64,000 bases of DNA, taken from assembly GCA_000827495.1 (NCBI GenBank), contig KN817580.1, positions 133,549 through 197,548 of the forward strand. The letters run 5' to 3'. Numbering within the stretch: position 1 is the stretch's first letter; each line of letters begins with the position of its first letter. This DNA comes from Hypholoma sublateritium FD-334 SS-4. Lineage: Eukaryota > Basidiomycota > Agaricomycetes > Agaricales > Strophariaceae. Below the pieces are notes generated by a model, which saw only the letters and a program-made list of their open reading frames with translations, was not told where the DNA came from and made no database searches. Positions 36,502-54,973 of the stretch are shown here, piece after piece. The translations under genes were made by a program, and so were the position numbers.

Positions 36502-38582
36502 ATGGCTGGCTTCAGAGGTTTCCTGATTTCCGCTCTTGCGCTCACATACTCCCTGCAGGCAAATGCTGGTAAGCCATATTCTACCCTCTTTCGCCCGGCA
36601 TATCTGACACTAGTCTTTTACCCAGCCCCACTAGACATGCGTAGCACCAAAGCGAACAGTACTGCTGTCAGTAATACAACATGTGCAAACTCGCAAGCGC
36701 GAGTTGTCGCACTCTTGCAAAAGACCAATAACGTCATCCTTACGATTGCTTCGCTTTCTCCAAAGTGAACTCTATGTTCTCTATAGTGTGTTTAACTGTC
36801 TGAATATAATTGTTACAGTGATACGTCCATGATCACCACGTTGGTCCAAGCGCAAACTGGTCTCCAAGACGCTATCAATGGCCTTCAATCCGTTTCTTCT
36901 GCAGTGGCCGCAGGCTCTGTTCCTTTAACTGGTCTGGCTCAAGTCGACTCGGCCCTCACCTCTACAAAGGATGCTCTCACCGCAGCCAAGGCTCTGTAAG
37001 TATTGATCATTTTGTAGCCAATCGATAATGCTCATCGTACTCAAATAGTAACGGAACGTCGACAAAGGTCGCAAAACTCTTGAAAACTGCTCAGACTCAT
37101 CTCGGACATACCGTTAAAGCAGAAGGACGCGTTGCCGCGGCCTGTGCCCCTGGTACCAGTACCAGCACGACCACCGTTGCAGTATCCTCCGCCTCTAGCA
37201 CATCTACCTCTGTCATAGCTTCTGCGTCTACTTCTGCAAACTCCACGACCACTGCATCCAGCACAAACAGCACCACAAGTGCATCTGTCACCGATACTTC
37301 TACGGTCAGCGCGTCGTTGACTTCCAGCTCCGCCAGTGTATCAGCGACCGTGGATGCCTCTAGCACTACTACCAATGCCACTTCGAGCACCGTGTCCGCT
37401 TCCACCACCGCAACAGATAGCACATCTGTCAGCGCGTCAGCGGTTACCAGCACTTCGGTGGCTACGACCTCCGCCTCGACGAGTGCCACCGACAGCGTAT
37501 CGGCCACCACCACTGCAACGACCAGCGCTGCGGCTAGTACCTCCACGAGCGCTGCAGCTAGTACCTCCACGAGCGCTGCAGCTAGTACCTCGACCTCCGC
37601 TGCATCTTCAGTGGCCGCTGCCGTTGTAACCGAGGCGGTGAAGGTCACTGCTGCTAGCGTACGTGAAGATATTTCATTGACCCGCTGCTTTGCTCATCTG
37701 ACATTGATCGTATAGGAGAAAGTCGCCAATGTCAATGCCAATCCACCCAAAGTAAAGGCCCCGGGAGCCGTCCCTAACCCAAGGAAGAACAGAAACAGGA
37801 CCAGGAAAGTTAAGACCGCTTCGGCGACGGTTGCTGCCACTGCTACCGACACTGCGGTCACCACCACCGATACAGCCACGGCTACTGCCACTGACACCAC
37901 CACCGATACTACCACGGCCACTGCTACTGACACTACCACCACCGATACTGCCACGGCCACTACTACCGACACCACCGACACCACCACGGCTACTGCGACG
38001 GACACCACTGACACTACTACGGCCACTGCAACGGACACCACTGACACTACCACGGCCACTGCTACCGACACCACCGTCACTGCTACTGCTACTGACAGCA
38101 CCACCGACACTACCACAGCTACTGCCACAGACACCACGGATACTACCACAGCCACTGCTACGGACAGTACCACGGATACTACAACGGCTACTGCTACAGA
38201 CACAACCGACACTGCCACAGCCACTACTACGGACACCACGGATACTGCCACAGCCACTGCTACGGATACTACCACTGCTACTGCTACGGACAGTACCGAC
38301 ACTACTACGGCCACTGCTACGGACACCACGGACACCACGACGGCTACTGCTACGGATACTACTGACACTACTGTAACCGCTTCGGCAACCGCTTCGGCCA
38401 CCGTCTCCGCGTCGACTTCCACCGCTACGACGTCCACTGACGCTGCGGCGATCACTGACGTCGTTCGCAGTAGCAAGGCTGCAGTCGGAGTAGCAGATGA
38501 TCTGCCGACTTCCCTCAAGGGAAGGTCCTCGAAATTTATCCGTGCGTATTTTACCATTGTTGCCTTCGCACATCTGGGCTAA
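36502..38582 (+). CDS. Secreted Ser/Thr/Ala-rich repeat protein, cell-wall type
   Basis: Likely cell-surface or cell-wall protein of 619 residues in five exons (36502-36568, 36626-36764, 36819-36995, 37049-37658, 37716-38582). It starts with a signal peptide (AGFRGFLISALALTYSLQANA). A helical domain of about 120 residues follows, with two Cys (NTTCANSQARVVALLQKT ... RVAAACAPG); it resembles hydrophobic-surface-binding HsbA-type domains, a weak call. Next come a Ser/Thr/Ala tail of about 190 residues, a basic insert (NPRKNRNRTRKVK) and the Thr-Asp-Ala repeats. The C-terminus is a short hydrophobic tail (AYFTIVAFAHLG); a splice donor just before it could give another end. Heavy O-glycosylation is expected. 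Confidence 0.75.
37830..38390. repeat. Degenerate ~33-bp coding tandem repeat
   Basis: About 15 imperfect copies encoding an 11-residue unit TATATDTTDTT with small variations. The array produces long spurious open frames on the opposite strand (Val- and Ser/Gly-rich). Confidence 0.8.
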
Positions 38583-40697: not shown

Positions 40698-41412
40698 TTA
40701 CGTCACATCATCATGCCAAGGGATGTCGTGTGCAATCCGAAATGCATCCCATTCTCGCCACTTTTCGTTCATCATCTCGTATGCTGGCACCCAATCAACG
40801 CACGTATGTGTCCCTCCGGTTCTACTCCTGGTGAAATTTCGCATCGTAAAGTCTCCAGGCTCAAGAGTGACGTCGGCTGCGCAGAGCGTCCATTGTCGAA
40901 GATAATTGAAGCAATGCAGAATATGCGCTTGTCGTGAATGGCCGATGGTTTTCCAGCCCTTTTCGATGGAGTTGCGCATCGCGCGAAGACAATGCAATTC
41001 ATGAAACATCGCAACTGCAAACATGCGTTCTTCCTTTCCGATGCGGACGTGTCCGTCTCCTGTCGTCGCAGTCCACAACCATTCTGCTTCTGCTTCGGGC
41101 GCCATCAAGTCGTAGTGGACGCTCTCCTGGACAATCATCTTGACAAGTTTTTCCTCAATCGGCAACCTTATTGGATGATCGGCTCCAATGAACGCTATTT
41201 GCGGACATTTGAGTATATAAATGAGATTGAAGCGAACATATCCCACAGTAAGAATCAATTGGTCGCACGACGGGACTTCTCCGCTGCTGCAGCTGCAAGA
41301 GCTTCTTGAGGTCTTTGGAGAACATTACAAGCGACCAAGACAAATACAAGGAAGCCGCGCTTAGAAGCAGTAATGCGAAGAGGTGGGGGTGTGGTTTCTT
41401 CTCTTTCTGCAT
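40698..41412 (-). CDS. UstYa-like (DUF3328) oxidase 1, both HxxHC motifs intact
   Basis: Membrane-anchored member of the UstYa/DUF3328 family, copper-type oxidases that cyclise or oxidise peptides in fungal RiPP pathways such as ustiloxin and related compounds. Two exons (41412-41247, 41194-40698) encode 220 residues. A single N-terminal anchor (about residues 10-30) precedes the lumenal domain. Landmarks: YSFIGADHPIRLP, the first motif HELHC (H120-C124) and the second HILHC (H146-C150) followed by FNYLRQWTLC, then CVDWVPAYEMM. Both metal-binding motifs are complete. It is head-to-head with the GNAT gene at 41975, with 562 bp shared. Orthologues occur without known products too, so the substrate is inferred only. 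Confidence 0.88.
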
Positions 41413-41974: not shown

Positions 41975-43075
41975 ATGCCTCCTTTTCGCGTACAGCGTGT
42001 CTTGAATCCCACAGGTAAATGAATAAACCTCCTTCGACCTGAAACGAGCCTGATGAAATAATTTGCGAACTCTTTCTGCCTTCAGAGGCCCGGCTCGCCG
42101 AGGCCGCGAATCTTTTTACAGACCTCATGAAAAATAGTAAACGTCCCTGATTATTTTGTTTCATCATACACTAAAACTGTAGGATTACATCTCAAAGATC
42201 TAGGCGCCCTTAGTCTAGCTGGCGGGGAAGCCTCTTTGATGAATTATCAAGCGCTGGCTTTGCTGCGGGTAGGCTCTCTATATGGAGAATATTACGAAGC
42301 TACAGACGACGAGGGAAATTTACTTGGTTTTACCATGTGGATGCCACCTGGCCAAGAAATGTTCAGCACGTTAGTCTCTCCGGCTTTGATTTATCCATCG
42401 TTAAAGTTAGCTAATTTGCGTACTTGCAATCCATAGCGAAGAACAAAGACGCCTAGGATTCAACTATTTCATGCAAATGCTTTCTAGCGAAGCAGAGAAC
42501 TACTTCAAGACCAAAGTGAGCAGATATCCACCACGACATTGCCTCGTCCGAACGGGAGCTCACAGCAGTGTTTAGTATGTCGCACAATTTCCAGGATTTG
42601 TAGCTAGCCTACTTGGTCCAAGGGTACACCTATTGTTCGAACCACTTCCCAGATGGGCTGACAACGATTATAAGGGCAAGATAGACTCTTGGTGGCTACA
42701 CATGGCTATGATACGTCATGATCGTCAAAGGAAGGGTGTGTTGCGCGCGCTGGTTGATATCGTTCGGGCGAAAGTAGGTCTACAAATGAATATCACTGAC
42801 GCAAGGTCTCATCAAATGCAACACCACTCTTCACAGGCTGAAGACGCTGGCGAATATCTTGCAACATGTACCACGAATGATGATAATGTAATATTTCATA
42901 AACCGAATCCGCGACTGACACTCATTGATCGACTCTCTAGATTCGTGTCTACACGGGTCTAGGTTTTGCTTACAAGGGATCTACCGAGATGGAATCACCT
43001 TGGGGTAAATGGCCGATCCATGTCTTCAAAATGGATTTTGCAGATAAAAAAGCCCCCAGCAACCATTTGGAGTAG
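41975..43075 (+). CDS. GNAT-family acetyltransferase
   Basis: Soluble acetyltransferase of 229 residues in eight exons: 41975-42014, 42086-42136, 42183-42369, 42437-42515, 42576-42623, 42675-42773, 42837-42887, 42941-43075. The N-terminus MPPFRVQRVLNPTEARLAEAANLF is typical of a large basidiomycete GNAT group. Core signatures: GYTMWMPPG-like GFTMWMPPGQEMF, KIDSWWLHMAMIRHDRQRKGV (acetyl-CoA loop R-x-x-K-G-V), TCTTNDDN, and YTGLGFAYKGSTEM near the end. It lies between UstYa-like oxidase 1 (divergent) and the precursor candidate, so it could acylate a peptide product, but it may equally be an unrelated detoxification enzyme. Confidence 0.82.
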
Positions 43076-44828: not shown

Positions 44829-45859
44829 ATGACACGGCAGAGTGACGAGCTTGAGTCGTTGGAGTTGCTATCTAGGGATCGTGAATACGGCGAAGTACAA
44901 GGTCAGAGCTCTCGGTTACAGACCTCTTCTATAGCACTGTTTGATGGTCCTTTAGAGAGATTGCACTCGCTTCGCAAGCTGAGGGGATCTATCAACTCAT
45001 GGCCTTATATGCTCACCGGTGTATTCTTGTTTTTCATCCTGGACATTGTTGCGTTCATCTGCATTGGGAAATTGCTTCTGGATGCGAAACGCTCGATTTC
45101 CGACCTCGATAACTTGGATTTTAAAGACCCATACGTTGGCCTAGATAAGCTTTATGGAAGCCGCAGAGTCAACAGCTCACGCTACAATTCAGTTATCAAC
45201 GAGCCGCGACTCTCAGCACAGATCAGCCCGGAACAGGCGAACGAGGTGTTTCCCATTGATTCCCATCGTTGGTTAAGCGACTTTGGCCTACTGTCCCCTC
45301 CAGACCGTCGTTTCCAAGTCTCGAGCAAAAAAAAAGTATGTCAACCCACTACACAATCGTTTCAATGAAAATCTTACAGCTATCTATCTATATTTTTAGA
45401 TCGTCACTGTCGTCCAATTCAATATCTTAGATTATGGAATGGAGAATTGCAGTCTGAAGATTCGCCTTCCTCGCCGCGGAGATAAACTACCCCATCCATA
45501 TACACTTCCCTCTATGTGGGATACAGTTCCCCTTGATGTTTGCGAACTCGACGTCAAGCGTCCACTTAAAGAGTGGTCTATTTCGTGGGCAACGCGTCCG
45601 GATTGCATTCGATCCCTGGGTACAGCAAGTGCTAAGGTTGGAGGGGAATTCGAAATTCGAAATTTTTCCTGCAAATCTGGTTCTTTCGTCGGATATCAAA
45701 TTTCCTGCTCTCAACCCTCCCCACAATGTGACCTTGATGTGTGGACAAATCAAAATGCGACATGGGGTGAGTTTGTTCTATTTTCTCCATCTGTGCAGGA
45801 GAATACTGAAACGCGATTTCTTAGGCATTTTCATAGAGCAGCATCAGACCTTACTGTAG
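44829..45859 (+). CDS. Single-pass membrane protein, But2-C-terminal-like
   Basis: Protein of 302 residues in three exons (44829-45335, 45400-45766, 45825-45859). A transmembrane segment (about residues 60-80, YMLTGVFLFFILDIVAFICIG) separates a short cytosolic tail from a lumenal domain. Conserved-looking blocks are EPRLSAQIS, VFPIDSHRWLSDFG, VVQFNILDYGMENCSLKIRLP, the Cys-containing SCKSGSFVGYQISC and DVWTNQNATWGIFIEQHQTL. This is a common Agaricomycete type sometimes annotated as having a ubiquitin-3-binding But2 C-terminal domain; the function is unknown. The tiny third exon restores the family's usual ending. Confidence 0.75.
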
Positions 45860-47230
45860 CTTGCTTTTGTCTTTATTTATATTCCAGAATATAATGCTAT
45901 CCGAATGCCGTCTTCGCCGTCACTTGAAAGCCATATGTAGACTCCGACATTGTTGAGCACTCTCACGCTGCGTGTCGTTTGTGGCACGATCAGAACGCTG
46001 CTAACACCTTCCGAACAAAATGCTGGCTTCATCTGCCTTATACATGCCGCACCTTGGTTAAAATAATTATCCGCGTTTGCACGACTTAACCCTCTATGCG
46101 TAGAACGAGGTTCACTTCTACAGTTCGAGTAATACTGGAATTAACCATTTAACATACTTACATCTCCATTGCCGCCATGAATCCCGATCTACCGCATATT
46201 GCGTATGAGTAATCATCACCGACATCGGCAGAAGTGTAACAGACAGCCGGTTAATGGGCGCTTGCCTATATATCCCATGAATGAATAAACAATGCAGTGT
46301 TCCTGCGCTCTCCTATTGCCATTTGACATTTTCGTGATCCTTATGCGTCTTCTTCCAGCCCTAGATTATTATGATTGCCCACGTGGCCTCAACTGGCACT
46401 TGGATTTGACGATGGCCTGCCCGCATCATTGAGGCCTGAGGCCTGAGGGCTTGGGGTCTGAACCTTCGGGTCTTCCCACCATCATTTGAAGTTTCGAACT
46501 ACAAATACCCCAATTGAAGCGTCTGAGCTGCCTTGATTTGTCTCGGGCATGCTATCCGTCAGCTCTTGGCTCTAGCTACATGATTACCCCGTGGACCAAG
46601 GCTAAGCATTCAGACGGGGGGTGCAGATGACCATTACCAACCTGCCCAGGGCGTCCGAAGCCGACAGCACTCGAGGCTGGCAGGAAGCCTGTATGTGACA
46701 AAAGTGAATAATTGGGACACTCGGTCTTTGAAAACACGGACGTATGTTATACATTTATTCGCGATATCTGAGAGCAACGGATTTTTCCTTTATACTACAA
46801 AATAAAGATGTTCAGAGTGGATTCACGGCAAAATCTATTTTTGTAACAAAGTGGTAGCCGATATCAAGGCTATACAATGCGTAAGTATATCTAGTCCGTT
46901 GTTTGAAATTCCAATGCCCTGGGTCTCTCTGGAGCAGCTGACGTTGCTATTTATTCGGTGGCATTGGATCCTCAACTTTGGTCCCTCCAATATGTTATCC
47001 ACATTTAAATATTGCTAACGTCAAGGTCACTATCAATAATATGGTTTGCCTGCATCTACTACCGACTCAGAGTAACAAATGGGCGTGCAATAAATAACAC
47101 AACAGTTCTTGATTTGACTAAGTAAGTTCCTGCCGTCTCGGACTCTACAGGAATTGTGACCGCGACCACGCCAGCTTGACCCAAAAGTCAGATTTGTGAT
47201 CCAAGACATTAGGTGCCATGCTTACTCTGT
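45860..47230. other. Intergenic region
   Basis: About 1.4 kb between the But2-like gene and the 3' end of the peptide precursor gene. No exon supported on either strand. Confidence 0.4.
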
Positions 47231-47583
47231 TTACGAATCTTCCGCCGCTGATCGCAGCCAAGCGGTGTCAACTAGTTCGCCCTCAGGCAGAGTCCGCAGG
47301 AATATAGTATCGACCGGACCACCATTTGGAAGGTCACGAAGCCAAACAGTATCGATCGGCCCTCCTTCAGGAAGAGAGCGTAGCCAAGCAGTATCGACTG
47401 GGGCACTCTCTGGGAGAGCACGCAGGAATGTATTGTCGACTGGAATGTCTAAACCTTTTGTCAGATCGAGTGCATGCAGCTCAGAAATATGCTCGCTTTA
47501 CCTGCAGTGTCCACAGAGATTGGTCTTGCAGTCACCGAGAGAAAAGACATGCTGATGATGAGGGTGAAGATTTTGCTGAACAT
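47231..47583 (-). CDS. Secreted repeat-peptide precursor (candidate RiPP precursor)
   Basis: Two exons (47583-47502 and 47454-47231) with a 47-nt intron (GTAAAG..AAAG) encode 101 residues. Residues 1-19 are a signal peptide (MFSKIFTLIISMSFLSVTA, VTA cleavage rule), 20-31 a short leader. Residues 32-101 are five consecutive 14-residue units ending exactly at the stop: PVDNTFLRALPESA, PVDTAWLRSLPEGG, PIDTVWLRDLPNGG, PVDTIFLRTLPEGE and a decayed LVDTAWLRSAAEDS. Copies differ mostly at synonymous positions, which argues for selection on the peptide and for this strand. Each unit holds one aromatic (F/W) and one Arg; there are no Lys-Arg Kex2 sites. A TATA box precedes it. Neighbouring UstYa-like oxidases suggest RiPP maturation; that is inference. 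Confidence 0.72.
47234..47443. repeat. 5 x 42-bp coding tandem repeat
   Basis: Five in-register 42-bp copies encoding the 14-residue units of the precursor. The copies are diverged at third codon positions (Leu as CTA, CTT, CTG, CTC; Arg as CGT, CGC, CGG, CGA). The opposite strand is also open but its translation is not conserved between copies. Confidence 0.85.
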
Positions 47584-47625: not shown

Positions 47626-47633
47626 CTTTTATA
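47626..47633 (-). promoter_or_regulatory. TATA box of the peptide precursor gene
   Basis: TATAAAAG on the minus strand, about 43 bp upstream of the start codon. A single ATG at 47604-47606 between TATA and start lies in another frame, near the expected transcription start, so it may not be in the mRNA. Confidence 0.55.
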
Positions 47634-49613: not shown

Positions 49614-50826
49614 TCACGAAGAGCCAAGGCTTTTAGTACTTCCGTTCCACTTCTCAGTAGCGGTTTCGCCTAATGTTGCAGTTCCGTGACTGTATCCACC
49701 ATGACTTTGAAGCTCGATACCCGACGCGTGTGCAACTGGCCTGCCATTGACAAGAAATTCCACGTTGCTTTGAGCTTGTGTGATGACTTCTCTTCCCCAA
49801 GCGCGGCCGGTGACGACACGAAGAACAATCAATTGAGGAGCGATGCACTGCATAAACACCATTAGTATGACATTGAATTGAAGTTGAGAAGACACACGGT
49901 AAGTTTTGCCCAGACTTGACCAAATGATATAGCAATCGGATTGCCCAAAGCGTAGGGAATCAAAAACATTATGCCAACGAAGCTGTATGGAGCGGCTGAT
50001 TCGATCAACATTGAGGCAACACTGGTGTACATTCTGGCGCTGTCGCGACCGAGAGCCCTAGCCACCGCTTTCCCGAGTTTGAGAAGGCGGCTCACAATAA
50101 GCACAGTAATGATGATGTTGAGGGCAATCGTGATGGTGTAGTATGGGGTCCCGAAATTGATTGTCTTTCCATGGAAGAAGTTTCCACCAGGTTTTCCTGC
50201 GAGAACGAGCTCAATAATAGCCAATGCTGTAAATCTAGGTCAATTGTTGTGTATATCCAGCAGAGACATGCTTACAGAAAGCGGCGAGATACGCAAGGAC
50301 AGGGAACGTTATCACAATGTATCGTGAGCCGTAGATGATGTAAAGGCGGTAAAGCTATTGCATGGATAAGGATGCGTGTTCAATAAAACGAAATCTAATG
50401 TGCATACCAATAAAGCGTCGCCCATGAATATCATGCACACTACGGAGGTAGATCCCATTGTCTGATACCAAGCAGAAGTCTGGGTGGCTATGAAGCCTGG
50501 CACACCTCCTGGACCATTGCGGCCATTGATCCACATAAGCTCACCCCATACAGCATTGACAGAGATGTCGACGGTGAGGAGGAGCAGAAGAATGGTGCTA
50601 TAAATGGCAAAGAACTTGCGACTTCTGGCCGAGTTATGATTGTTCTTCCGTAACAGTCCCTGCAGGGTCAAAAAATACATGACGAGGTTAACCCCTACAG
50701 AGCCGTTCATATCAGCTGGGTGATTCTCGTCATACTGTATCAAACAGCACACATACCATACAGGATACCGCTCATGTAGCTGCCGATGTAGAACGAGTGC
50801 TCAAATTGTGAGAGAGCCGATGCCAT
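49614..50826 (-). CDS. DUF6534-type seven-helix membrane protein
   Basis: Polytopic plasma- or endomembrane protein of a large basidiomycete-specific family. Five exons join in phase from ATG 50826 (MASALSQFEHSFYIGSYMSG): 50826-50757, a long second exon starting at GVNLVMYFLTLQG, LYRLYIIYGSRYIVITFPVLAY, the exon beginning LAIIELVLAGKPGG, and a last exon CIAPQLIVLRVVTGRAWG onwards. Seven hydrophobic helices can be counted. The RLLKLGKAVARALGRDSARMYTSVASMLIESAAPY block (split here for length: RLLKLGKAVARALG, RMYTSVASMLIES) is characteristic. The C-terminal tail is hydrophilic. It is divergent from UstYa-like oxidase 2, sharing 571 bp. The function is unknown; a receptor-like or transport role is speculative. 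Confidence 0.85.
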
Positions 50827-51397
50827 GATGATGATGCTTGTATGTTTTGAAAGCAGGAAAGGGGAAAGGTTTCTCTGGTTCTCACTTATCTTGACGGTGC
50901 GGTTTTATGTATCCTCTACAGCCACGCCAAAATTGTCTCGATTGTACAAACTAAACAGGGTAACCAAGCGTCCAGGGCAAAAATGTCCGTTCGTTTGGCA
51001 ACTTTGATCGATATGAGAATCATCGGTGTAGTATCTTCGCTGGTGTGGGGAATACGTAGATGTTTGGGTGGAGATCAGATACAAGAATAAGAGAGATACT
51101 CAGCTACAGAGACACAGGACCATGCGAGCGACGCTAGGATGGCGACAAAATGGCCCAAAATGGCCTCGAGGTCAGTATATCCGAGCATTGATAGGAACCA
51201 AAAGTAGCGATTTCGCATATCCCCTTATTGCCAGAACCTCCGGGACAACTGTCAAGTATCGTGATCGCAAGAAAGGCGTATAAACTTTATGACCACATAA
51301 TAACCGACTGGCAATATTGCCGTGCGGTTACCACTTAAACAGAAGCATTCGACTCGCACAAGTAAATACACACACCCGGTATTGACCTTCCTTTCTC
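50827..51397. promoter_or_regulatory. Shared divergent promoter region (DUF6534 gene / UstYa-like 2)
   Basis: 571 bp between two divergent start codons. A TATAAAC string at 51279-51285 lies about 115 bp before the UstYa-like 2 start. No coding exon seen. Confidence 0.45.
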
Positions 51398-52066
51398 ATG
51401 CATTCCCATTCCAAGCTCCACGCCCTACCGCTCACAGGAATAAGCTTGGTATTGTTTGGACTGAGTGTGTTAATCAAGTTCGCGGGGACGATATGGATCC
51501 ACAATGAGATCGCCCAGCTAATAAGAGAGTACAGTGAGCATATCGACCAGTGGTTGAGATATCCACTTACTGTCTGCGGGATTTCCTTCTCTTCAGCTTA
51601 TGTGGGCGAGGATTATCCTGAACTCTGGCCCATAGAGAGGAAGAGCGTCTTGATGACCTTCGATAATCCCAAGCACTTCCGATTGGATACAGAGGACGGC
51701 GCGGCTGAATGGTCTACTATCGCACCTGGAAATGGAGTCGTATACCTAGGGCCCCATCATCAGCCTTATACAGTTTCGATGATGCACCAACTCAAGTGCC
51801 TTGACATTATACGCCAGGAGATGGTCCGCGAGGACAGTCTATTCGATGATGGGCAATCGGCCCTTGCACGACACTGCCTCAACTATGTACGGCAAATGGT
51901 CATGTGCCATGGGGACATAGAGCTCGAATCATTTCAATTTGCGTCCCACAAGAACCCAATCGATTGGCATGGGGTGTATGAATGTAAGGATTGGGAAGCA
52001 GTGTACAGCGAGGTGGATAGGAATCAAGCACAGCATGTGGAGTGGTTAGAAAATCGCTTAACGTAA
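51398..52066 (+). CDS. UstYa-like (DUF3328) protein 2 with degenerate HxxHC motifs
   Basis: Single-exon membrane-anchored UstYa-family protein of 222 residues. The anchor spans about residues 12-34 (TGISLVLFGLSVLIKFAG). Family landmarks: AYVGEDYPELWPI, the first motif region MMHQLKCLDIIRQ (H130-C134, Lys133 where a His is usual), and the second region ALARHCLNYVRQMVMCHGD (H159-C160, Leu156 where the first His is usual), then WHGVYECKDWEAV. So one His of each metal motif is replaced, in contrast to the homologue at 40.7 kb. It may be a non-catalytic partner or use different ligands. It is convergent with the siroheme gene. Confidence 0.85.
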   Translation: MHSHSKLHALPLTGISLVLFGLSVLIKFAGTIWIHNEIAQLIREYSEHIDQWLRYPLTVCGISFSSAYVGEDYPELWPIERKSVLMTFDNPKHFRLDTEDGAAEWSTIAPGNGVVYLGPHHQPYTVSMMHQLKCLDIIRQEMVREDSLFDDGQSALARHCLNYVRQMVMCHGDIELESFQFASHKNPIDWHGVYECKDWEAVYSEVDRNQAQHVEWLENRLT

Positions 52067-52326: not shown

Positions 52327-54206
52327 TTAAAGGGTTTCCCACCCTGTGTCGAGGCCCTCGCGCATTTTCCAGCGGTGCCCACCTAGCCACCTCATGACAC
52401 GAGCTTCGTCCTGACTTTCGCCACCTTCATCCAAAACTCCCATGTCGCCTTGTCCATGGAGAGCTAGAACGGCCCAACCGACGATCATCATTCCCGGGGG
52501 ACGTTGTTCGCCATTGCTTTCCAGTGCTTTGACTATATCGCTCAAAGTGGAAGAGATGACACGTTGATCCGGCATAGATGCCCGTTCAATGATGGCAATA
52601 GGAGTATTAGGAGGGTAGGACTGTCCATCGCGACGATGGTTTTCGTCTGCGTCCTTCATAAGGCTGTCAATGACTTGTTGTATGCGCGCTACACCCATAA
52701 GAATGACGACAGTCTGCGAGCGCTTGTATCCAGGCAGCTGGACCTCTTTTCCTTTCCTGCCAACTCCAGTGCAAATGATAAGAGATTCGGCCACGCCACG
52801 TTGGGTGACGGGTATTCCAGCGAACGTCGGTGCAGCGAGAGCGGAACTGACACCAGGTATCACCAGGGGCTCGAAGCCATGTGAGCGAAAGTATAGCACC
52901 TCTTCGCCCGCTCTGCCATATACTACCGGGTCTCCTTGCTTCAGCTGTGTAGAAACATGAGAGGAGATCGATAAAACAAGTTAAATAACGAAAGGAATAT
53001 ACGCACGCGTACCACCGTCATTCCTTGCTTCGCTGCCACGATAGCAGCTTCCATCATCTCAGTTTGTGCGCCTTCGGCATTTCCTGGAAATTTTCTCGCA
53101 ATGCGAACCTCCACATGCTTCGGTATGAGTGATAACACCGCATCTGGTACAAGTTTATCGGAAAGAACGAGATCGGCGAGTTGAGTAAGCGCAGTATGCG
53201 TGGCAATAGTGAGCAAAGAAGGGTGCCCTGGGCCCGATCCGACTAATAGAATGCGGCCAACTTTGTGAAAGGGCTGGTAATGCAATGACGTCAATTGGGA
53301 TTGGGGGCGTTGGTTTATCGCGACATCGAGGGAATGTGGATTTGAATCCGCGAGAATGTTTTCTATATCGGCGTCTGTCATGGTCGAGAGTTTTGAGATA
53401 GGCCAATATTCGCTGACTTGCGCAACCCATTTTATGCGTCTACTTCTGGCCTCTGAGGCGCTTTCTGTATTGCTTCGAGACGGTACAGGTCGATTGGGCG
53501 TTAACACAGCACTTTCTTCGCAGATATCTTCGTCGTCCATCTGATATGCCATATAGTTCCCGTCATCCTCCTTCTTTGCCATGGCGCGCATGCGCCCGAC
53601 TTTTTCCGCTGCAGCACCAACTTCTTTGGGTAGCTTTGATACAATTTCACGACGCAAACGTGCGGCCATTCGACAACCCTGGCCATTTGTTGTCACGCCA
53701 ATTTGGAGTGAAGTCTTTTCGCCAGTTTCGTGATTTTCGAAGCGATGAGATGAGGTGAAGGAAAAGTCGCAGAAATCCACCATATCCGTCGTGTTGACGA
53801 GAATGTTTCTGGCTCTGAATATGCGATAGATCTCCTCGGCAGAGACACAGCTACGCTTTTGAAGGTTCGATAATGTGTCGGTTACAGAAGCAAGGACTAT
53901 GTGTGGGTTCATCTGCAAAAATGCATCGAGTCGATCCGCTTCGTTGTTGGGCATTGAAGAGCACGGCAAGTCCTCCCAGTCAAAGAATTGGACCTGCTTC
54001 TGACTTATCCTCCATTTCAGCTCATCGCAAGCCGATTCGACTCCGCCAGTTGCCAACACAAAAACGGAAGAGTCCGCCTCTAGCGCCGCGAAAGCTCGAG
54101 ATGCGGCAAGAGTGCCAGAACCAATGATCAAGACAGCCTTGTTCCGAAGTTTGAACGACAAGATGAGAGATGCACCACCCTTAGGTACGGCATATGGTCC
54201 TGACAT
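52327..54206 (-). CDS. MET1: Siroheme synthase / uroporphyrinogen-III C-methyltransferase
   Basis: Makes siroheme for sulfite and nitrite reductases: methylates uroporphyrinogen III with SAM, with an N-terminal Met8-like precorrin-2 dehydrogenase/chelatase module. Two exons (54206-53007 and 52944-52327) encode 605 residues. N-terminal Rossmann module: SFKLRNKAVLIIGSGTLAASRAF, then CRMAARLRREIVSKLP. C-terminal tetrapyrrole methylase: VGRILLVGSGPGHPSLLT, LKQGDPVVYGRAGEEVLYF, VIPGVSSALAAPTFAGIPVTQ, MPDQRVISSTLSDI and PPGMMIVGWAVL. The single intron falls between MTVVR and LKQGDP. The start at 54206 is the first ATG; upstream in-frame sequence has none. Confidence 0.93.
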
Positions 54207-54973
54207 GGCTTGTGATGGTGTGAGGGAAAAACTGGGTGCTTCGAAGTCATACTGGTCATTGACGTCGCCGAAAACCGACAAAAAAAGGCAGGTGCTGTGT
54301 CGTGCTCATTTGGTGCTCATGAGCAACCGGGATCCCGGGCCGAATGTCCTAAATTCCGGGGACCAAGCAGGTTGCTTGGATTTGAGGAATGAAATTATGT
54401 AGCCTCCGAAACTTATTTGCAACCTGGTATTGACCTGATACTCAACTTCTAAGCGTACAAAAAGGGCTCCCTAGCACACGAAATTACCCCCCTATATCCT
54501 GAAGAATGGCGCCGACGTATGTCTTTACGGAGCTAATACGCACACCCAAATTCCCAATCGTCCACCTTGAGGCTTGTTGGGGTCTGCGATTCTTGCGGGC
54601 ACGGTTGAGCTCCCCCTTACGCCTCGCCGCTCCCTTCGAGTCCCATAACTAAGATCGCATACTTCATCCGTAGGCCAGTCGGCTCAAACTGTCCTGTAAT
54701 CGAAGCGGACAGGAATTGACCAATTTAACAACATCCAACCTTATAGCAAACGTTATAGCATGAATTTCATTGGCGTATCCGGTCAAAGCATCGTAAGGAT
54801 GGCAGTATGGTAATCTAGCAAAGGGAGGAAGAATAACCAAAAGGATAGAGATGTTAGATTGCGAGCACGAGAAATAATTCACGGGGACCCGCAAGGAGAA
54901 CTGAGAAACACAGAATAGCCACAATGAAAAAAATAGGGTATGATAGCATCAGGCCGCCACGAAAGGGTATCAA
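54207..54973. other. Intergenic spacer
   Basis: About 0.77 kb between the siroheme gene start and the 3' end of the LAM-type gene. No gene supported. Confidence 0.45.

Follow-up and report, generated by a model that had tools for sequence, protein, structure and literature searches.

A candidate repeat-type precursor gene of a UstYa-modified RiPP cluster in the agaric mushroom Hypholoma sublateritium

The RiPPs of agaricomycetes include the MSDIN cycloamanides and the borosins, whose cytosolic precursors have no signal peptide and are processed by POPB or an N-methyltransferase, with no UstYa. The dikaritins belong to the Ascomycota. For the ustiloxin precursor UstA, a review (PMC6514808) gives a speculated cleavage into 16 peptides of 13–14 residues and describes UstQ, UstYa, and UstYb as each essential for ustiloxin. 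According to a survey by Umemura (2020), Tyr is the crosslinked residue of ustiloxins, phomopsins, and asperipin-2a, and KEPs are defined by at least three repeats of at least eight residues between KR, KK, RK, or RR (PMC7329392). The same survey gives DUF3328 genes beside 30.1% of ascomycete KEPs versus 6.1% (103/1680) of basidiomycete KEPs, and suggests that the cyclization factor of Basidiomycota differs or that cyclization might hardly occur there (PMC7329392). The DUF3328 protein CctR is reported as a binuclear copper homodimer that faces the organelle lumen, in which four His within each monomer hold two coppers (PMC12435403). DUF3328 proteins are also reported to serve non-RiPP pathways (PMC12048977).

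In this work, a stretch of 64,000 nucleotides of H. sublateritium FD-334 SS-4 (contig KN817580.1, positions 133,549 to 197,548), called here the window, was analysed around a short gene with tandem repeats. We consider, with a probability of about two in three, that it is the repeat-type precursor gene of a UstYa-modified RiPP cluster. The initial annotation had proposed a RiPP-type precursor from the peptide itself; this proposal is now strengthened by UstYa genes on both sides, which it had not mentioned, and by a gene set that recurs in the genome.

The precursor gene, its repeat units, and a seven-unit relative

The precursor gene is located on the minus strand at positions 47231..47583, with the ATG at 47583 and the stop codon at 47233-47231, and has two exons. 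Exon 1 (47502..47583, minus strand) comprises 27 codons and encodes a signal-peptide-like start, MFSKIFTLIISMSFLSVTA^RPISVDTA, in which ^ marks the predicted cleavage site; a hydrophobic core and a VTA cleavage site were recognized from composition only, and a short leader follows. Exon 1 is succeeded by a phase-1 intron and by a repeat exon that runs to the stop. Three in-phase acceptors are available, giving introns of 47, 53, or 62 nt. The protein of 101 residues first described corresponds to the 47-nt intron (acceptor end at 47455). The two-exon gene on the minus strand is retained, but we prefer the 53-nt intron (47449..47501, minus strand, GTAAAG...TTTAG), since the spacing between a CTGAC branch-like site and the acceptor is then more typical, and the protein would have 99 residues. 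The other elements of the earlier model agree with the sequence: the intron is of the GT-AG type, exon 1 and the repeat exon join in phase, and the TATA box would be TATAAAAG at 47626..47633 of the minus strand, with its first base 50 bases 5′ of the ATG. In the genome (46.1 Mb, 281 contigs), this gene was the sole copy that DNA and protein searches found.

The repeat exon encodes five units of 14 residues each, exact in the minus-strand frame and with the last ending at the stop, just as had been annotated. Unit 1 (PVDNTFLRALPESA, 47402..47443) is followed by unit 2 (PVDTAWLRSLPEGG, 47360..47401), unit 3 (PIDTVWLRDLPNGG, 47318..47359), unit 4 (PVDTIFLRTLPEGE, 47276..47317), and unit 5 (LVDTAWLRSAAEDS, 47234..47275), all on the minus strand. 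The consensus D-T-x-[W/F]-L-R-x-L-P-[E/N]-G given earlier describes units 2, 3, and 4 fully, but units 1 and 5 deviate from it, the first with D-N-T-F...E-S and the fifth with A-A-E-D where the consensus has L-P-E-G. Summed over the ten unit pairs, the nucleotide differences between units at codon positions 1, 2, and 3 are 38, 40, and 95, respectively; the codons thus differ between copies, and the excess at third positions means that conservation is at the level of the peptide and not of the DNA, which is what the initial annotation had claimed. The self-similarity of the 101-residue model is 34.5 s.d. above its own shuffles.

No dibasic site is present in the precursor. Its K/R residues are at positions 4, 20, 37, 51, 65, 79, and 93, so that the reported single Arg per unit, without Lys-Arg sites, was recovered with a spacing of 14 residues; Tyr and Cys are both absent. 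A genome scan for DNA encoding motifs like DTx[WF]LR gave 11 matches, four in the precursor and seven scattered, and the reversed control pattern gave six. In a scan of a set of UstYa loci, no two or more such motifs were found clustered beside other UstYa genes.

A search for homologues of the unit, which had been recommended at the outset, found one repeat-bearing relative, P0001 (166 aa, ENA), from another source. It was the one real precursor relative among seven candidates from a protein collection of 5.8 billion sequences. In a profile search of the same collection, scoring was limited to the 8000 candidates with the most shared words, of which two were listed and one was accepted, the sole good match being again P0001; the E-values of this search are not clean, because two of the four profile rows were made up from observed substitutions. 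Another candidate, P0046, was rejected by eye as a different simple repeat. The best PDB match of the precursor, a laccase (E 0.11), and an NCBIfam match to the lanthipeptide model VenA, below its cut-off, were taken as chance.

P0001 has seven units of the same kind versus five in the window precursor, and its unit 1 counterpart is identical. The repeat half of P0001 aligns in frame to the window locus with 71% identity, and its front half matches the unspliced 5′ region, exon 1, and the intron in another reading frame. Since it spans the 5′ region, exon 1 off-frame, the intron, and the in-frame repeats, P0001 most likely represents the corresponding locus called without splicing. In one of its units, the PEG linker is longer by two inserted residues, and in its last unit Arg is replaced by His. 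From this insertion, a single event, VDTx[WF]LR may be taken as the core and LPEGG as a spacer. The family proposed earlier as new is so only in the sense that a single relative was found and that the Pfam UBM match is a partial resemblance.

The flanking UstYa genes and their counterparts in the genome

Two DUF3328 genes are located on opposite sides of the precursor, at 5.8 kb (UstYa1) and 3.8 kb (UstYa2), with other genes between. UstYa1 (40698..41412, minus strand, intron at about 41195-41246) is a canonical DUF3328 protein (PF11807, E 2e-16) with the motifs HELHC and HILHC and an N-terminal hydrophobic, transmembrane-like stretch. UstYa2 (51398..52066, plus strand, intron at about 51534-51596) matches PF11807 with E 2e-17 and has the degenerate motifs HQLKC and LARHC. 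The matches lie within the ORFs 40698-41324 (minus) and 51386-52066 (plus). The genome has 39 UstYa matches, in about 31 genes by our count, and 0.5% of it is within 5 kb of such a match. For a gene picked on other grounds, placement beside UstYa is therefore unlikely by chance.

A gene for a membrane-protein-like product with a But2 C-terminal domain (PF09792) is found at 44829..45894 of the plus strand (intron at about 45336-45399). Eleven But2-like copies occur in the genome, and ten of them, the window copy included, are within 5 kb of UstYa (binomial p ~1e-22). A multi-spanning membrane protein is encoded on the minus strand at 49614..51218, in several exons with approximate limits, and belongs to a family enriched near UstYa genes: 6 of its 19 matches are within 5 kb (p ~4e-10), and 13 are farther off. 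A UstYa pair, the But2 protein, and the multi-spanning membrane protein form the gene set that recurs across the compared UstYa neighbourhoods. In addition, a candidate GNAT-related gene at 42131..42962 (plus strand, approximate limits) has a paralogue at contig C16, a fragment of which resembles GNAT acetyltransferases below the Pfam cut-off. A Pfam scan of the window copy gave no match, and this putative GNAT-type gene, whose identity is without Pfam support, recurs in three UstYa clusters. A Pfam scan of 20 window ORFs, out of 115 of at least 110 aa, found no tyrosinase or S41 peptidase.

A sirohaem synthase-like gene at 52327-54305 (minus strand), with Pfam sirohaem synthase and tetrapyrrole methylase domains, adjoins UstYa2 and may be the cluster border. 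On the other side, at least 12 kb from UstYa1, the segment 24165-28229 (minus strand) contains a weak P450 match and an aminotransferase class I/II gene.

Twenty-seven of the approximately 31 UstYa copies were placed in a tree; those of C69, C132, and C35 and C81:48112 were omitted as broken or partial. A copy was called degenerate when it lacked a complete HxxHC, had the second motif-1 His replaced by K, R, or Q, and still had the first His and the Cys in motif 1 and the final His and the Cys in motif 2. By motif, 10 of the 27 copies are degenerate, 14 have both HxxHC, and three are neither: C135:18789 (HEIHC, HIGDC), and C15:223101 and C56:132105, which fit neither pattern. UstYa1 has both HxxHC motifs, as in CctR-type DUF3328 dimers; UstYa2 does not. 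That all ten degenerate copies have the first motif-1 His and the motif-2 His-Cys follows from the pattern itself, but their grouping in the tree is not so defined. They form one group with moderate support (85/94), in which the long branches C27:51675 and C65:33334 meet. None of the ten has His at the start of motif 2, and a canonical copy is found at most 11 kb from each.

In nine clusters (C16, C27, C31, C63, two in C65, C81, C135, and C136), a canonical UstYa is located 1.2–11.0 kb from a degenerate one. A Mantel test on the distance matrices of the nine canonical copies and of their nine partners gave r 0.84, a value reached by 5 of 20000 permutations; such a correlation would be expected from joint duplication of the pairs. 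The search with UstYa2 found 44 relatives at E ≤ 1e-5, 41 of them with 45–89% identity, including proteins of Flammula, Pholiota, Galerina, Psilocybe, Gymnopilus, Coprinopsis, Laccaria, and other mushrooms. The seven named genera are Agaricales. In the alignment of 21 of the 44 relatives with the window protein (22 rows), H130, Q131, and C134 are invariant and residue 133 is K or R throughout; the second motif keeps R-H-C in 21 rows and has a gap there in the remaining one. With these sequence features, the degenerate UstYa resembles a long-standing pseudo-enzyme partner. For UstYa2, a single-chain model made from the unspliced translation (mean pLDDT 56.8, pTM 0.35) is confident only for the N-terminal helix and too poor to test a shared copper site; both motifs are on helices. 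With these helices in an antiparallel arrangement, the positions of the two lost His would be opposite each other and make up one copper site. In searches of the open-access PMC literature, nothing was noticed on a degenerate UstYa partner, on But2 proteins in RiPP clusters, or on the 14-residue repeat.

Small secreted-peptide genes were also sought at the other clusters. A formal scan near UstYa gave 11 rows with 10 starts, including the window precursor, versus 2.75 ± 1.5 starts in 20 random controls, and the same scan gave one start in the 50 kb of the window outside 39–53 kb. Six of the ten starts were accepted as putative precursors (C16, C65 twice, C81, C27, and the window's own in C63), and four were dropped (C31 twice, C56, and C63:170050). 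C63:170050 is a signal-peptide-like start at window position 36502, 5′ of long Thr/Ser/Ala-rich low-complexity tandem repeats at 37029-38582 (plus strand). Two further genes at C31 (C31a and C31b) and two at C136 were chosen by eye and by paralogy from 67 rows. Putative genes with a signal-peptide exon and a short exon are thus found at C16:372445, C65:69952, C65:25815, C31:240936, C31:340688, and C27:48377, and as two paralogues in C136. In the clusters C81a, C135a, and C135b, no candidate small precursor was accepted. Repeat scans beside other UstYa genes gave low-complexity or unrelated repeats, which were rejected; only C81:50230-50996 (plus strand) was kept, a KR-type repeat precursor at a distance of about 2 kb from a UstYa gene, with ALAMFLKR units and a signal-peptide-like exon.

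In our reading of the putative models, dibasic sites precede the single last core in C31a (KR) and C65a (RR), and therefore they are not absent across the whole candidate set. The window precursor would then be a repeat-expanded, dibasic-free member of a variable set. The paralogous putative genes C136:5466 and C136:16460 (both plus strand), near UstYa genes, share a conserved LGxCLS...CLxLT exon. The C16 UstYa pair is flanked by two paralogous signal-peptide-bearing proteins with basic, KRPxxP-rich tails (L065:3366-4418 and L066:2106-2777).

Proposed maturation and alternative readings

Because it lies between two UstYa copper-enzyme genes, the precursor is probably the raw material of a modified peptide. 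It would enter the secretory pathway via its signal peptide, and in the ER/Golgi lumen the precursor or the peptides cut from it would be oxidatively modified by the membrane-anchored copper enzyme UstYa1, perhaps as a heterodimer with the degenerate UstYa2. The likely targets are the Trp/Phe and the conserved Asp-Thr. Cleavage would give peptides of about 13–14 residues; the most likely cut is behind the lone Arg of each unit (in WLR or FLR, with S, A, D, or T next), with Kex2 acting at these monobasic sites and Kex1 then trimming the Arg. A cut after a single Arg is supported by several Coprinopsis cinerea KEP products made in P. pastoris that appear, as reported, to end in this way (PMC9769878). 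The But2-domain and multi-spanning proteins may help in maturation, transport, or immunity.

Some observations count against the RiPP reading: the precursor has no Tyr and no dibasic site, the UstYa genes are several kilobases away, the last unit of P0001 has His for Arg, and DUF3328 proteins serve non-RiPP pathways as well (PMC12048977). Relatives of UstYa2 are widespread in agarics, yet the two protein searches with the precursor found only P0001; among the named agarics, no precursor relative was detected, unlike for UstYa2.

A clearly less probable explanation is that the precursor is cut at the single Arg into linear secreted peptides of a hormone-, pheromone-, or defence-like kind, and that UstYa acts on another substrate of the cluster. 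It would agree with a core without Tyr, with the detection of linear peptides of basidiomycete KEPs (PMC9769878), and with the few basidiomycete KEPs, 103 of 1680 (6.1%), for which DUF3328 neighbours are given (PMC7329392). Nevertheless, UstYa genes flank the precursor on both sides, and in a splice-aware scan of the window for short secreted repeat proteins of up to 260 residues, no other candidate had a comparable score, the next-best reaching 4.5 s.d. against the 34.5 s.d. of the precursor. The strict 14-residue period, again with no dibasic site, would also suit a secreted repeat protein that stays uncut and has a structural or surface role, but this is improbable, given the UstYa context and the change from five to seven units with a two-residue linker insertion in P0001, as expected for independent cores.

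Pfam matches to the ubiquitin-binding motif UBM (PF14377) would make the repeats a chain of such motifs, with 6e-11 for P0001, which carries this label in the database, and 3e-5 for the window protein, barely above the cut-off (23.8 vs 23.3 bits). This reading is highly improbable and was rejected after single units were scored and other UBM matches of the genome were compared: single-unit fragments reached at most 16 bits over 11–14 of 35 positions and three of the five had no match, whereas the three UBM matches at C55 score 35–51 bits each over 32–33 positions; the signal peptide and the UstYa context do not fit it either. The label of P0001 stems from partial matches to the repeat, and automatic annotation may miscall such precursors as ubiquitin-binding. 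Finally, a chance open frame or a plus-strand gene with no minus-strand protein, for which a 131-codon plus-strand frame is open, is hardly credible against the third-position bias in the minus-strand frame, the self-similarity, and a relative with seven in-frame units.

Comparison with known systems

A dibasic-free precursor beside a UstYa pair suggests that basidiomycete substrates have been overlooked by the search rule. Canonical and degenerate UstYa copies found in pairs, the latter with relatives in many agarics, offer a concrete test case for DUF3328 heterodimers. More tentatively, these clusters could represent an agaric-specific class of RiPP cluster with a canonical UstYa, an obligate partner with one copper site, a But2 protein, and hypervariable, dibasic-free secreted precursors; as part of this doubtful proposal, the partner would lack exactly one of the two copper sites through loss of its second motif-1 His and its first motif-2 His. 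The window precursor would in that case have expanded to five Trp/Phe cores, and such precursors would escape screens for dibasic repeats. In Pleurotus, 6 of 16 UstYa-like genes are reported as developmentally expressed (PMC8893723), which makes a role in fruiting possible.

Like UstA, the window precursor has tandem units of 13–14 residues and two DUF3328 genes in the cluster, and its start, judged by composition, would correspond to the signal peptide of UstA. The dikaritin features of DUF3328/UstYa in the cluster and tandem repeated cores are thus found at the locus, and the Kex2 dibasic sites between cores are not. UstA has Kex2 sites and a Tyr-bearing core, whereas the window precursor has one Arg per unit and no Tyr or Cys; one of the two window DUF3328 proteins, UstYa2, is motif-degenerate, which is another difference from the ustiloxin system. 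The precursor would work like that of a dikaritin, yet we file it neither as a dikaritin nor as a KEP, because the defining Kex2 dibasic sites are absent. It resembles KEPs as a putative secreted repeat precursor, and the KR-type one is near another UstYa gene of the same genome, but with zero dibasic sites it falls outside the KEP definition, and the KEP survey could not have counted it, since dibasic sites are required there.

Asperipin-2a (AprA/AprY) and the epichloecyclins share with the window locus a DUF3328 gene in the cluster of the precursor; asperipin differs in its single DUF3328, Tyr-based rings, and origin in Ascomycota. CctR is of the same DUF3328 family as the window UstYa genes and forms its binuclear copper site from HxxHC...HxxHC, but it acts as a homodimer, hydroxylating cyclochlorotine once this cyclic peptide is complete, whereas the window has a canonical and a degenerate copy together. 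The MSDIN cycloamanides and borosins are agaricomycete RiPPs, as the product of the window precursor would be; from their precursors, that of the window is distinguished by its signal-peptide-like start and its flanking UstYa genes.
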